In this document: positions 11,060 to 37,330 of the stretch, in pieces
How the letters are laid out: each line of letters begins with the position of its first letter
How positions within the stretch are numbered: position 1 is the stretch's first letter
Origin: Gammaproteobacteria bacterium
GTDB lineage: Bacteria > Pseudomonadota > Gammaproteobacteria > Ga0077536
Reading direction: 5' to 3'
Assembly (NCBI GenBank): GCA_030833185.1
Contig: JAURHQ010000014.1
Coordinates: forward strand, 1-37,330
Length of the DNA stretch: 37,330 nt
Notes under the pieces: model-generated
Database searches by the model: none
The model's input: the letters and a program-made list of their open reading frames with translations, nothing else
Told to the model about the DNA's origin: nothing
Translations under genes and position numbers: made by a program

Positions 11060-11674
11060 ATGAAACAGCAAGTCATGAGCAAGATTTTCCTTATTCTGTG
11101 CGTCCTGTTTGGCGCGAGCGCGGCGCAGGCCGAGGGCGATGCGCAGCAAATCGTGCAGACCACCACCGCCGAGGTGATGGCGCGGGTGAGAGCCGAGAAA
11201 GACACGCTACGCGCGCAGCCCGCGAAAATGTATTCGCTGGTCTCGGAGATGATTTTTCCGCACTTCGATTTCGCGATCATGTCGCAGTTCGTGCTGGGCG
11301 CGACCTGGAAAACCACGCCGCCCGAGAAGCAGGCGGCCTTCGTCGAACAGTTCCGCCGCCTGCTGGTACGCACTTACGCTACCGCGCTGCTCGAATACTC
11401 CGACCAGCGGGTGGAATATCCGCCGTCGCCGGCGGCCAATAATCCGAAAACCGCCACCGTCCGTCAGGACATCGTGCAGACCGTGGGCAAAGTCCTGCCC
11501 ATCGTTTACCGCCTGCACAACAAGACCGGCGAGTGGAAAGTATTTGACGTTGAAGTTGACGGCATCAGTCTGGTCAAGACCTTCAAGTCTTCGTTCGCGC
11601 AGATTCTCACCGACGGCGGCATCGACAAGCTGCTGGAAAATCTGACCTCCAAAAACAAGGACCTCGGCGCCTGA
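11060..11674 (+). CDS. mlaC: Periplasmic phospholipid-binding protein MlaC
   Basis: MlaC (Ttg2D) shuttles phospholipids between the outer membrane MlaA complex and the inner membrane MlaFEDB transporter. The 204-residue product has a Sec signal peptide (MKQQVMSKIFLILCVLFG, likely cut after SAAQA at about residue 24) and the family motifs YSLVSEMIFPHFDF, MSQFVLG, FVEQFRRLLVRTYATALLEY and KVFDVEVDGISLVKTFKSSF. The frame is open upstream, but the ATG at 11060 has GGAG at nine bases and gives a proper signal peptide. In the usual operon mlaF-E-D-C-B precedes ibaG-murA; here gloA lies upstream and no mlaB lies downstream, so the transporter subunits must be elsewhere or missing. Confidence 0.92.
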   Translation: MKQQVMSKIFLILCVLFGASAAQAEGDAQQIVQTTTAEVMARVRAEKDTLRAQPAKMYSLVSEMIFPHFDFAIMSQFVLGATWKTTPPEKQAAFVEQFRRLLVRTYATALLEYSDQRVEYPPSPAANNPKTATVRQDIVQTVGKVLPIVYRLHNKTGEWKVFDVEVDGISLVKTFKSSFAQILTDGGIDKLLENLTSKNKDLGA

Positions 11675-31534: not shown

Positions 31535-32886
31535 GCGCGACTCAGCCCATCCCCGCCATCTATGCCGGGCAGCATTGGGGCGTGTTCGGCCTCGGGCTGA
31601 CCGGCCTGTCCTGCGCCCGTCATCTGTTGGCGCGGGGCGCGCGACTGACCTGCGTCGACACGCGAGCGGCCCCGCCGCTGCTGGACGCCGTGCGCGCGCT
31701 CTCCCCGGACATCGCGACCCGCTGCGGCGAGTTGCCGGCGGATGTTTTCGGCGCCTGCGACGACGTGGCCGTCAGTCCGGGCGTGCCGCTGGACCATCCG
31801 TCACTGCTGGCGCGCACCGGCCCGCTGCTGGGCGATATTGCCCTGTTTCGGCGTGCGGCCAACGCCCCGCTGCTGGGCATTACCGGCTCGAACGGCAAGA
31901 GCACGGTGACCACCCTGGTCTGGCAGATGCTGGCCCGCGCAGGGCAGGTGGTGCGGGCTGGCGGCAACCTCGGCACGCCGGCGCTCGACCTGCTGGAAGG
32001 GCAGGCGCCCGACTGCTATGTGCTGGAACTTTCCAGCTTTCAGCTCGACCTGACCCCCGATCTGGCTGCCGAAGTCGCGTGCGTACTCAACCTGTCGGCC
32101 GACCATCTTGATCGGCATGGCAGCCTTGAGGCCTACGCTGGCGCCAAGGCGCGCATTTTGCGCGGCGCGCGGCACCTGGTGCTGAATGCTGACGACCCGC
32201 TGGTGGTCGCGATGGCGCCAAGGGGGCAGACCGTGCGCTGGTTCGGCAGCCACCGCGCGCAGGCTCACTATCATCTGGCCGAGCACGCGGGGCAGCGCTG
32301 GCTGTGCTGCGGCGACGAGCCCGTGATCGCGGCCGCCGAACTCGGCATCAAGGGCCAGCACAACGAGCTCAACGCCCTGGCTGCCTTGGCCATGACCGAC
32401 TGCATGGGGCTCGCACGCGACGCCCAGTGCGCGACGCTGCGCGAGTTCACGGGGCTGGAACACCGCTGCCGCGAAGTCGCCACGCATGCTGGCGTCAGCT
32501 GGTACGACGATTCCAAGGGCACCAATATCGGCGCGGCCAGCGCCGCGATCGCCGGCATCATGCACGGGCGGCGCGGGGTGCTGATTGCCGGCGGTCAGGG
32601 CAAGGGCGCTGACTTTCGCGAACTGCGCGAGGCCGTTGCCGGCCGGGTGCACACGCTGGTGCTGATTGGCGAAGACGCCCCGCTGCTCGCCAACGCGCTG
32701 GGCGATCTGGCGCAGATCGAATTCGCCGCCAGCATGCCGCAGGCGGTGGCGCTGGCCGCCGCCGCCGCACGGCCGGGTGACGCCGTACTGCTAAGCCCGG
32801 CCTGCGCCAGCTTCGATATGTTTGAGGGCTACGCCCATCGCGGCCGGGTCTTTGCCGCAGCGGTGGAGGCGCAGATCAGCGCATGA
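31531..32886 (+). CDS. murD: UDP-MurNAc-L-alanine:D-glutamate ligase MurD
   Basis: MurD adds D-glutamate to UDP-MurNAc-L-Ala. The 451-residue ligase shows [17 protein letters not shown] (UMP-binding Rossmann motif), the ATP loop [59 protein letters not shown], and [22 protein letters not shown] at the C-terminus. All are typical, and the length is that of the family. It overlaps mraY and ftsW by four bases each. Confidence 0.98.
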
Positions 32887-34103
32887 CTCAGGCGGTTCGC
32901 AAACCCGTGCCCGTGATGCGCATCCACGATGAGCCGCGCTTTGACCCGTGGTTTGTTTTCGCGCTGGTGACCTTGGTCGCACTCGGCATCGTGATGGTCG
33001 CCTCGGCCTCAATCGCGCTCGGCGCCCGGAATCACGGCACGGAGTTTTATTACGCCAAGCGCCACCTCTTTTCGCTGAGCATGGGCAGCCTTTTCGGCTA
33101 CATGCTCTACCGCGCCGGGCTCGATACCATCCGGCGCTACAGCGTCTACGGGCTAGGGATTTCAATCCTGTTGTTGATGGCGGTGCTGGTGCCGGGCATT
33201 GGCCATCGCGTCAACGGCGCCTGGCGCTGGCTGTCGATCGGCGGTGTGACCGTTCAGGCCTCCGAAGTCGCCAAGCTCGGCATCATCGTGTATCTGGCGG
33301 GCTATCTGGTGCGCCATCAACTGCAGGTCCAGCAGCATCTGTGGGGCTTCGCGAAGCCGATCGGCGTGTTTGGGATCATCGCCCTGCTGCTACTGGCCGA
33401 GCCCGATATGGGGACCACCATCGTGCTGGCGGCGACGACGCTGGGCATGGTGCTGCTGGCCGGCGCGCCAATCCCCACGTTCATCGGGGCGGGCTCGATT
33501 CTGGCAACGCTGGTCGGTGTCCTGATCGTGATGGAACCCTACCGCCTCGCCCGTTTGAGCAGCTACCGCAACCCTTTCGAGCATGCCGAGACCTCGGGCT
33601 ACCAGCTCGTGCAGTCGCTGATCGCCTTCGGGCGCGGCGAGTGGACCGGTGTCGGACTCGGCAACAGCGTGCAGAAGTTGTTCTATCTGCCGGAAGTGCA
33701 CACCGACTTTATTTTCGCCGTGATCGGTGAAGAACTTGGCCTTGCCGGCACGGTGTCGGTGATTCTGCTGTTCCTGTTTCTGGTCTGGCGCATCTTTCGC
33801 ATTGGTGAACGGGCCGAGCGGATGGGCCAGACCTATGGCGCCAATCTGGCCTACGGCGTGGCCTTGCTGGTGGGCCTTGAGTCCTTCATCAACATCGGCG
33901 TGAACATGGGCTTCTTCCCGACCAAGGGACTGACCTTGCCCTTCATCAGCTATGGCAACAACAGCACCATGGTGCTTTGTGCGGCGATGGCGCTGGTGCT
34001 GCGGGTGGCGCATGAATCGCGTACCGACCGCTCGGCGGTCACGCCGCCCGCCGAGCCGCCGCCCGTCATCGACGGGCCACCCACGGAGCTTGCGCATGGC
34101 TAG
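32883..34103 (+). CDS. ftsW: Septal peptidoglycan glycosyltransferase FtsW
   Basis: FtsW, a SEDS polymerase, links lipid II into glycan strands at the septum together with FtsI. The 406-residue protein has about ten membrane segments; motifs seen are GHRVNGAWRWLSIGG, LAEPDMGTTIVL, FIFAVIGEELGLAG and NIGVNMGFFPTKGLTLPFISYG. The last motif continues NNSTMV where most family members have GGSS or a similar small-residue run, a modest deviation. The C-terminal tail is long and proline-rich. It overlaps murD by four and murG by eight bases. Confidence 0.97.
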   Translation: MTQAVRKPVPVMRIHDEPRFDPWFVFALVTLVALGIVMVASASIALGARNHGTEFYYAKRHLFSLSMGSLFGYMLYRAGLDTIRRYSVYGLGISILLLMAVLVPGIGHRVNGAWRWLSIGGVTVQASEVAKLGIIVYLAGYLVRHQLQVQQHLWGFAKPIGVFGIIALLLLAEPDMGTTIVLAATTLGMVLLAGAPIPTFIGAGSILATLVGVLIVMEPYRLARLSSYRNPFEHAETSGYQLVQSLIAFGRGEWTGVGLGNSVQKLFYLPEVHTDFIFAVIGEELGLAGTVSVILLFLFLVWRIFRIGERAERMGQTYGANLAYGVALLVGLESFINIGVNMGFFPTKGLTLPFISYGNNSTMVLCAAMALVLRVAHESRTDRSAVTPPAEPPPVIDGPPTELAHG

Positions 34104-35172
34104 GCGCGTACTGATTCTTGCGGGCGGCACCGGCGGGCATATCTATCCCGCGCTGGCGGTGGCCGACGTGCTGCGTCAGCAGGATGTGGGCCTGCGCTGG
34201 CTGGGTGCGGCCGGCGGCATGGAAGGCCGCATCGTGCCCGGTGCCGGCATCGAACTGGTTGAGATGGTGGTCTCCGGGCTGCGCGGACGGGGCTGGCGCG
34301 GCTGGTTGCTGGCGCCATTCACGCTGCTGGTGGCGACCGCGCGGGCGGTGACGGCGATACGCGCATTCCAGCCCGGCGTGGTGCTGGGGATGGGCGGCTT
34401 TGTCAGCGGCCCCGGCGGGCTTGCGGCCTGGCTGTGCCGGCGCCCGCTGGTGATTCATGAACAAAACGCCATCCCGGGCCTGACCAACCGTTTGCTGGCG
34501 CGACTCGCGACCCGCGTGCTGGAGGCCTATCCGGGCAGCTTCAGCGCCGCGCATCGCGCGCTGACCACCGGCAATCCGGTGCGTGCCGCAATCGCCGCGC
34601 TGGCCGGGCAGATTCGCGCCTCGCGTCCGGCCGGAGCGCCCCTGCGGGTGCTGGTGCTGGGCGGCAGTCGCGGTGCGCGCCGACTCAACACCGTGCTGCC
34701 GGCAGCGCTTGCCCGTCTGGCGGCGCAGCCGCTGGAAGTCTGGCATCAAACCGGTGAGGTCGACCTCGCGAGCACCCGCGCGGCCTACGCGGCGGCGGTG
34801 CCCGGCGCGCGCGTGGACCCCTTCATCACCGACATGCCGGCCGCCTATCAATGGGCCGATGTGGTGGTGTGCCGGGCCGGCGCCATGACGATTGCGGAAC
34901 TGGCCGCCGCGGGGCTGCCAGCGGTGCTCGTGCCATTCCCGCACGCGGTCGACGACCACCAGACGGCCAATGCGCGTTATCTGGCAGACGCCGGTGCGGC
35001 CGTGCTGATGGCCGATGCCGCGCTGACCGCCGAAGACTTGGCGGCGCAACTCCAACGCTGGGCCGCGGACCGCGACCTGCTGACGCAGATGGGCGCCAAG
35101 GCGCGCGCGCTGGCGCAACCAATGGCGGCCGACACGGTCGCCCATCACTGTCTGGACCTGCTCCATGCATAA
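34096..35172 (+). CDS. murG: UDP-GlcNAc:lipid I N-acetylglucosaminyltransferase MurG
   Basis: MurG converts lipid I to lipid II at the inner face of the membrane. The 358-residue GT28 enzyme has the glycine-rich LAGGTGGHIYPALAVA near the N-terminus, a second G loop region GMGGFVSGPGGLAAWL, HEQNAIPGLTNRLLA, VLGGSRGARRLN, and the UDP-binding VVCRAGAMTIAELAAAGLPAVLVPFPHAVDDHQTANA. The ATG at 34096 overlaps the ftsW stop (34101-34103); the frame is open further upstream but this start gives the family N-terminus. Confidence 0.98.
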   Translation: MARRVLILAGGTGGHIYPALAVADVLRQQDVGLRWLGAAGGMEGRIVPGAGIELVEMVVSGLRGRGWRGWLLAPFTLLVATARAVTAIRAFQPGVVLGMGGFVSGPGGLAAWLCRRPLVIHEQNAIPGLTNRLLARLATRVLEAYPGSFSAAHRALTTGNPVRAAIAALAGQIRASRPAGAPLRVLVLGGSRGARRLNTVLPAALARLAAQPLEVWHQTGEVDLASTRAAYAAAVPGARVDPFITDMPAAYQWADVVVCRAGAMTIAELAAAGLPAVLVPFPHAVDDHQTANARYLADAGAAVLMADAALTAEDLAAQLQRWAADRDLLTQMGAKARALAQPMAADTVAHHCLDLLHA

Positions 35173-36577
35173 GCCCGAGACGCTGCCGATGCACAACGTC
35201 CGACGCATCCACTTTGTGGGCGTCGGGGGTGCCGGGATGAGCGGGCTGGCCGAGGTGTTTCATAACCTGGGCTATGCCATTTCGGGCTCTGATCAGGCGT
35301 CGAACCGGATGACGGAGCAGCTCGCGCGTCTGGGCGTCGCGATTTCGGTGGGCCACGCGGCCGAACACGCGGCGCAGGCCGACGTGGTGGTCTATTCCAG
35401 TGCCATCCCGGCTGACAATCCGGAACTGCTGGCCGCGCGGGCGCGCCGGGTGCCCATCGTGCCGCGCGCCGAAATGCTGGCCGAACTGATGCGTTTTCGC
35501 AGCGGCATTGCCATCGCCGGCACCCACGGCAAAACGACGACCACCAGCCTCATGGCCAGCGTGCTGGCCGAGGGCGGGCTTGACCCGACCTTTGTCATCG
35601 GCGGGCTCTTGCACAGCGCCGACTCGCACGCCCGCCTGGGCACCGGCCACTATCTGGTGGCGGAAGCCGATGAGAGCGATGCGTCCTTCCTGCTCCTCAA
35701 TCCCCTGATGGCGGTGTTGACCAACATCGACGCCGACCACATGGACACCTACCAGCAGGATTTCGAGCGCCTGCGCGGCAGCTTTCGCGATTTCTTCCGC
35801 CGCTTGCCGTTTTACGGGGTGGCGGTGATTTGCGCCGACGACCCCAACGCCGCGTCGCTGGTCGACCAGTTACACACGCGGGTCATCACCTATGGCCAGC
35901 AGCAGGACGCGGACATCCAGGGTTATGACATCGAATTACGCGGCACCCGGTCGCGCTTTCGCGTGCGTCGCCGCGGCGTGGCCGACGATTTTGAAGTCAC
36001 CCTCAATATGCCCGGACGGCACAACGCGCTGAATGCGTTGGCGGCCATTGCGGTCGCCGGCGAGCTGGGCATTTCCGATGCGGCGGTCGCGCGCGCCCTG
36101 GGGAGTTTTCAGGGCGTGGGCCGGCGCTGCCAGGTGCGCGGCCGCACCCGCTTTGGCAACGCGCTGGTGACGGTGATTGATGATTACGGCCATCACCCGC
36201 GCGAACTCGCCGCGATGATCAGAACCGCCCGCGAAAGCTGGGCCGGGACCCGCTTGGTGCTGGCCTTCCAGCCCCATCGTTACAGCCGTACGCGCGACTT
36301 GTTTGAAGATTTTGCCGAGGTGCTGAGCGGCGTCGACGTGTTGCTGCTCCTCGACATCTACAGCGCCGGTGAGAAGCCGCTGCCGGGCGCCGACGCCCGC
36401 GCGCTGTGCCGATCGATTCGCGCCCGCGGCGCCGTCGACCCGGTGTTTGTATCCGGGCCGGACAAGCTGCCTGAAGCGCTGGCCGGCGTGGTCAGGGATG
36501 ACGACCTGGTAATGCTGCTGGGCGCCGGCAGTATCGGCCGCGTCGCCGAGCGTCTGCACTACGAGGCGGACGCCTGA
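35165..36577 (+). CDS. murC: UDP-MurNAc:L-alanine ligase MurC
   Basis: MurC adds L-alanine to UDP-MurNAc. The 470-residue ligase has IHFVGVGGAGMSGLAEVFHNLGY, the SGSDQ motif, the ATP loop GTHGKTTTTSLMA, AEADESDASFLLLNP, NIDADHMDTY, GRHNALNALAAIAVA, DDYGHHPREL and FQPHRYSRTRDLFEDFAEVL. The ATG at 35165 overlaps the end of murG by eight bases; an internal ATG at 35189 (MHNVRRIHFVG) is the alternative and gives the more usual N-terminus. murB starts two bases after its stop. Confidence 0.97.
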   Translation: MHKPETLPMHNVRRIHFVGVGGAGMSGLAEVFHNLGYAISGSDQASNRMTEQLARLGVAISVGHAAEHAAQADVVVYSSAIPADNPELLAARARRVPIVPRAEMLAELMRFRSGIAIAGTHGKTTTTSLMASVLAEGGLDPTFVIGGLLHSADSHARLGTGHYLVAEADESDASFLLLNPLMAVLTNIDADHMDTYQQDFERLRGSFRDFFRRLPFYGVAVICADDPNAASLVDQLHTRVITYGQQQDADIQGYDIELRGTRSRFRVRRRGVADDFEVTLNMPGRHNALNALAAIAVAGELGISDAAVARALGSFQGVGRRCQVRGRTRFGNALVTVIDDYGHHPRELAAMIRTARESWAGTRLVLAFQPHRYSRTRDLFEDFAEVLSGVDVLLLLDIYSAGEKPLPGADARALCRSIRARGAVDPVFVSGPDKLPEALAGVVRDDDLVMLLGAGSIGRVAERLHYEADA

Positions 36578-36579
36578 AG

Positions 36580-37254
36580 ATGAACAGACGCGAGGCAACC
36601 GCGAGGGCAATGCAAGTGGCTGAGGGTGAAGAAGCAAGCGTGCTGAACAGTCCGGCGTGGCTGACGGGGCTGTCCTTGCGTGGGCGACTGCGGTCGCATG
36701 AGCCCATGTCCAGGCACTGCACCTGGCGGGCCGGCGGCGCGGCCGAGCGGCTGTTCGAGCCGGCCGATCTGGCGGATCTGGTGAGCTTCCTGCAGGCGGC
36801 GCCGCTGGCCGAGCCGCTGACCCTGATTGGTTTTGGCAGCAATCTGCTGGTGCGTGACGGCGGCCTTCCCGGCACGGTCATCCTGACCGCCGGCGTCTTC
36901 GGCCAGTTGCGTTGGCTGGACGAGCGGCGGGTAGAGGCAGGCGCTGGTGTCGCCTGCGCCAAGGTGGCTCGTCAGGCCGCCCGCCGCCAGTTGGGCGGCG
37001 GTGAATTTCTGGGCGGCATTCCGGGCACGATTGGCGGCGCGCTGGCAATGAACGCGGGCGCCTTCGGGCATGAAATCTGGTCGCTGGTCGAGGCGGTAGA
37101 AACCCTTAGCCGCGGCGGTCGCGTGCAGCGTCGCCCGGCGGCTGAATTCCGCGCCAACTATCGGCAACTGGAAGGCCTGAACGAAGAATGGTTTGTCTCG
37201 GGCACGCTGCGCTTTGACGTCGACGCCAGCACCACCAACTTCCAGCAACCTTGA
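36580..37254 (+). pseudogene. murB: UDP-N-acetylenolpyruvoylglucosamine reductase MurB, truncated at the C-terminus
   Basis: MurB reduces the enolpyruvyl group made by MurA to give UDP-MurNAc, using NADPH and FAD. This frame encodes 224 residues: HCTWRAGGAAERLFEPADL, IGFGSNLLVRDGGLPG, GGGEFLGGIPGTIGGALAMNAGAFG and EWFVSGTLRFDVDA, that is the whole FAD domain and the start of the substrate domain. It then stops at 37252, where intact MurB would continue for roughly 80 more residues including the GSVFRNP-type motif with the catalytic Ser and the C-terminal Glu. No other frame in the remaining 76 bases restores that domain. The break may be a real insertion or an assembly join. Confidence 0.8.
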
Positions 37255-37261
37255 GACCTTT

Positions 37262-37329
37262 GTTGACGCGATCGCGAGGCGAAGCTCGGGATGTGCCAGT
37301 TCCCTTAGCTCGCGAAATCGCGTGACAAC
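37262..37329. repeat. Imperfect inverted repeat after truncated murB
   Basis: GTTGACGCGATCGCGAG (37262-37278) matches the complement of 37309-37329 at all 17 bases with two 2-base gaps; the loop is 30 bases. The sequence is less GC-rich than the neighbouring genes and encodes nothing I recognise. It could be the end of an inserted element or a structured spacer; the window ends one base later. Confidence 0.55.
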
Positions 37330-37330
37330 C

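Follow-up and report, generated by a model that had tools for sequence, protein, structure and literature searches.

The window analysed here is the complete contig C55 (37,330 bases) of the draft genome G000, and the feature of interest lies at its right end. G000 comprises 4,395,899 bases in 743 contigs, with a completeness of 93.2% and an estimated contamination of 2.81%. The right end of C55 carries a complete murC gene and, beginning three bases past it, a frame of 224 residues (36580–37254) that ends at a TGA codon (Table 1). The product of this frame matches the FAD part of MurB alone (PF01565, E 4.5e-17), and residues 33–216 align with positions 12–196 of 303 in the NF010480 profile. 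The N-terminal FAD-binding part of MurB is present, and the two profiles bear out the original prediction, made from the sequence of the window, that the frame ends after this domain. The prediction also held that the remaining bases encode the MurB C-terminal domain in no frame; none was found in their six-frame translation (read by eye), and Pfam searches of the frames tested from them gave no MurB_C match.

Seven same-genus genomes match the murB frame, and their homology to it ends at residues 213–218 of 224. This corresponds to positions ~37227–37242, ahead of the stop codon. The change to unrelated sequence after murB, originally placed at the last 76 bases, is therefore confirmed, but its length is not: the foreign part begins at ~37228–37242, before the stop codon, and measures ~91–103 bases.

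Table 1. Features at the right end of contig C55 (window positions).
Feature	Positions	Strand	Evidence
murC, complete	35165..36577	+	TIGR01082, E 8.5e-164, residues 14–464 on profile positions 1–448 of 449; murB adjacent in 19/19 relatives compared
murB, start codon and FAD-binding part with clear homology	36580..37227	+	PF01565; NF010480 to residue 216; 54–71% identity to same-genus murB
Junction zone, with the end of murB somewhere inside	37228..37242	+	Spacing of murB parts in relatives (e.g. L005, L008); junction alignment; first base of C32 at ~37243
TGA stop, probably within the foreign tail, in which case it is not the true murB end	37252..37254	+	Sequence; position past the end of homology
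Foreign tail at contig end, probably a wrong join	37243..37330	.	No convincing relative in the collections searched

The second half of murB

A search of the genome with the MurB_C profile gave a single match (112.5 bits) above the family cut-off, at bases 1–285 of contig C32. The frame is open from the first base of this contig and covers profile positions 6–99 of 99. C32 begins in murB, with no foreign bases ahead of it, and continues with ddl, ftsQ, ftsA, ftsZ, lpxC, secA and argJ, ftsQ lying between ddl and ftsA. The missing end of murB, ddlB and ftsQ, which the original prediction had expected beyond the end of the window, are thus found on C32 in the expected order. As expected of a contig-end artefact, the gene resumes at the edge of a second contig in the assembly, base 1 of C32. 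G000 contains one murB FAD part only and no second MurB_C above the cut-off, the sole further match being a sub-threshold one on C727 (12.4 bits, E 0.55). Since both halves of murB are in the bin, the concern that loss of the gene would be lethal unless another reductase were present falls away, and a second MurB is not needed. The two contigs do not overlap; their longest common word is 11 bases, and they share no 20-base word.

Of the 35 other genomes with a murB match, the 19 best were used to compare the parts of murB. The adjacency comparison took in all 19, and the junction alignment 10 of the 19 loci, as the motif used gave no frame at the other nine. All 19 relatives compared have MurC, the FAD part and the C part in this order on one strand, and Ddl follows in 18 of them, with no match in L021. 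In the same-genus locus L005, the part matching residue 215 of the window frame and the part matching residue 1 of C32 are 18 bases apart, and L008 agrees. From this spacing, the first base of C32 corresponds to ~37243 of the window, and the gap from the last clear murB base in C55 to base 1 of C32 would be no more than some 15–18 bases. C55 and C32 are probably neighbours on the chromosome. The nearest relative, G008, does not contain this region (no murB match, and just a 62-base match to window positions 32883–37330), so it cannot show an intact murB. The closest named records with a related murB are gammaproteobacterial metagenome bins. A record titled as a Klebsiella pneumoniae MAG (CAMCQE010000011.1) has a murB 71% identical to that of the window, and its name is probably wrong.

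If murB were naturally divided into two separate genes in this species, the GTG with which C32 happens to open could serve as a start codon. However, the C32 frame stays open right up to the first base of the contig, the break falls where two contigs end, and the relatives have the two parts near each other on one strand, with murB frames stop-free over 301 residues or more in the genomes listed; natural fission is extremely improbable. Alternatively, C55 and C32 could derive from separate strains or organisms placed in one bin, C55 carrying a real minority-strain variant of murB. Metagenome bins do mix strains, and the contamination estimate of this bin leaves some room for it, but the FAD part and the C part of murB each occur just once in the bin, and the identities to L008 (MurC 90%, FAD part 71%, C part 79%, Ddl 74%) are in the range expected for one genome. 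We consider such a mixture highly unlikely.

The terminal sequence

The last 76 bases of C55 have a GC content of 59.2%, compared with 65.5% for the contig, a level that 18% of the contig's 76-base stretches match or fall below; over the last 103 bases the GC content is 57.3%, and 8.7% of stretches are equally low. The tail also contains a gapped inverted repeat with two arms of ~20 bases and a score that 91 of 1000 dinucleotide shuffles and 179 of 1007 contig windows equal or exceed. Both the lower GC content and the imperfect inverted repeat described in the original prediction therefore exist, but both are within chance. RNA folding of the tail is not unusual (z = -1.36, with 17 of 200 shuffles folding at least as well), and Rfam has no match within it, its sole hit (E 2.5) lying outside, at 36968–37049; an RNA or other structured element was accordingly rejected. 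As a coding fragment the tail gave nothing either: three of its frames have no Pfam match. Its longest open minus-strand frame found nothing meaningful among plasmids (E 3) or in the PDB (E 0.7).

When the tail was compared with the rest of G000, as had been proposed for the last 76 bases, no other copy was found at E <= 0.001, and at E <= 1 there were two 19-base matches only (E 0.21). In 57 other relatives the matches were limited to short words, the best outside the genome itself being 21 bases long (E 0.023). The tail was not found in 368 other genomes of the class, and neither phages nor E. coli genomes gave a match. A plasmid search returned one partial match of 33 bases, from Paraburkholderia (E 0.07). 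An exact 20-base piece of the tail is absent from the viral contigs and genome contigs searched, a collection from which the window's own or a very near genome may be missing.

These results bear on the possibility, raised in the original prediction, that a mobile or repeat element is truly inserted in murB; the tail would then be its left end. The tail is foreign, the break is abrupt and a weak inverted repeat is present, all of which would suit such an element. However, it was rejected for want of any second copy: the genome holds no other, neither phages nor E. coli match, and the plasmid match is partial. Nor is the inverted repeat of the kind expected of a multi-copy insertion sequence, since it does not exceed chance, and the element's other end is not found beside the second half of the target, as C32 starts inside murB. 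Nine tails compared among the contig ends of this assembly share only words of 11–14 bases. In addition, murB is expected to be essential, and the bin has no other MurB_C above the cut-off. An insertion of this kind is very unlikely.

The manner of assembly is a further consideration. Contig C29 (L063, 11,202 bases) has an exact terminal direct repeat of 77 bases (1–77 and 11126–11202). It is probably a circular element of ~11.1 kb, a plasmid or phage, in the bin, and from C29 alone a de Bruijn assembly with k = 77 may be deduced. A break caused by a repeat in such an assembly would put ends of the element on both contigs, so that C32 should open with the other end; C32 has none and opens in murB, and the C55 tail, which is unique, exceeds 77 bases. 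A repeated mobile element in murB is therefore disfavoured. A single-copy, undescribed element, present in the species or in part of the population, with murB functioning as two pieces or through intact copies that other cells carry, is very unlikely. Were the tail a real insertion, the question would arise of how the cell lives with an interrupted murB; the evidence points elsewhere.

Tails at other contig ends

To place the C55 end among others of the assembly, 42 of the 743 contigs (three in part only) were sampled, giving 81 ends, of which the best 50 by codon score, the right end of C55 included, were examined; the sample is thus non-random. Half of these (25 of 50) were uninformative, either having no family at the thresholds used or containing a gene that is complete before the end. 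The 25 informative ends comprise seven clear tails, two probable tails, 15 clean ends and one (C41 right) in neither class. Similar foreign tails, as expected if the C55 tail is a contig-end artefact, therefore occur elsewhere, with six clear and two probable cases among the other 24 informative ends.

Besides the right end of C55, in murB, the clear tails are those at C8 left (~122–131 bases), C19 left (~111–126 bases), C5 right (82 bases, in the trigger factor gene tig), C12 right (106 bases, in lepA), C22 left (~118 bases, in ysxC) and C32 right (up to 108 bases, by HMM). C36 right and C24 left have probable tails. At the clean ends, homology extends to the contig end or nearly so; these are C3 left, C3 right (10 residues over), C7 left, C11 left, C12 left, C14 right, C15 right, C23 left, C24 right, C27 left, C28 left, C34 right, C35 right, C39 right and C40 left. 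The unrelated tails in this assembly typically measure ~80–130 bases and cut into conserved genes such as lepA, tig and ysxC. As the nine tails compared share nothing beyond words of 11–14 bases, they do not represent one repeat. The C22 left tail (L056) contains a palindrome-like stretch of 36 bases (16–50, 89%).

Comparison with same-genus genomes confirms the tails in lepA and ysxC. The alignment of LepA (C12) starts at residue 36 of 499 in all six matches, and that of YsxC (C22) ends at residues 198–199 of 238 in all eight. For both proteins the best match is G008, with 98% identity as far as the break and an intact frame in each case. The right end of C32 is less sharp, with four of seven relatives stopping at residues 252–256 of 288 and the other three reaching 269, 273 and 277. 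The N-terminal part of LepA was not found elsewhere in the bin, the match on C179 being another elongation-factor GTPase. Outside the sample, the trigger factor is split between C5, with the first 119 profile positions, and C598, with positions 147–410; the end of C598 carries ~300 bases unlike trigger factor.

Contig C179 (L087, 1–165) suggests what these tails may be. Its elongation-factor GTPase domain ends at residue 151 of 206 and the frame runs on into a continuation weakly similar to a 2-hydroxyacyl-CoA dehydratase protein (34.5% identity over 55 residues, E 3e-5). This is a probable false fusion at a contig end, and it suggests that contig-end tails are pieces of unrelated genes.

A probable contig break within an intact murB

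The best explanation is that murB is intact in the organism and divided by the break between two contigs, the C55 side bearing a wrongly joined tail. We assign a probability of about 0.93 to this ordinary assembly flaw. A wrong join at the end of a contig was one of the origins first proposed for the junction, and it is supported by the missing half of murB at base 1 of C32 and by the similar unrelated tails at other contig ends. The observations that speak for the break are the split itself, the missing half on C32, which continues the frame and the gene order, and the unrelated tails that recur at other contig ends. Counting against an artefact, 15 of the 25 informative ends are clean, so that tails are frequent without being the norm. 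The truncation is very probably not a real feature of the genome but an ordinary contig-end artefact.

The assembly would have lost the thread inside an intact murB at ~37227–37242. C55 would then continue into ~100 bases that do not belong there, most likely by way of a chimeric read or a wrong path in the assembly graph, while C32 would begin within a few codons of the break and carry the rest of murB together with the cell-division cluster. A coverage break where C55 ends, combined with a chimeric read or wrong path from which we infer the tail to have come, would explain why the tail is unique, why the overlap is missing and why such tails recur at unrelated genes.

Split genes in draft metagenome-assembled genomes likewise have their two parts at the ends of two contigs in one bin, and such artificial splits at contig ends are mentioned in a passage of the MIMAG standard (PMC6436528). 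The present case differs from a plain contig-end split in that one side adds ~100 bases of unrelated sequence. In a passage on truncated contigs, chimeric reads are named as a possible cause; they are described there as lying over contig edges more often than other reads, with an effect judged not substantial (PMC6162917). That passage concerns amplified single-cell genomes, whereas G000 is a metagenome bin, for which we infer the cause.

The case is a caution only: where a metagenome contig appears to end in a truncated gene, the remainder of that gene may lie on a different contig. In this assembly the last 80–130 bases of contigs are often untrustworthy, and in this bin tails have produced false truncations of murB, lepA, tig and ysxC. 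Flagellin N- and C-terminal parts lie at C15 right (L049) and C35 right (L068), meeting near profile position 180; these two ends share no 20-base word, and flagellin is possibly another gene split between contigs.
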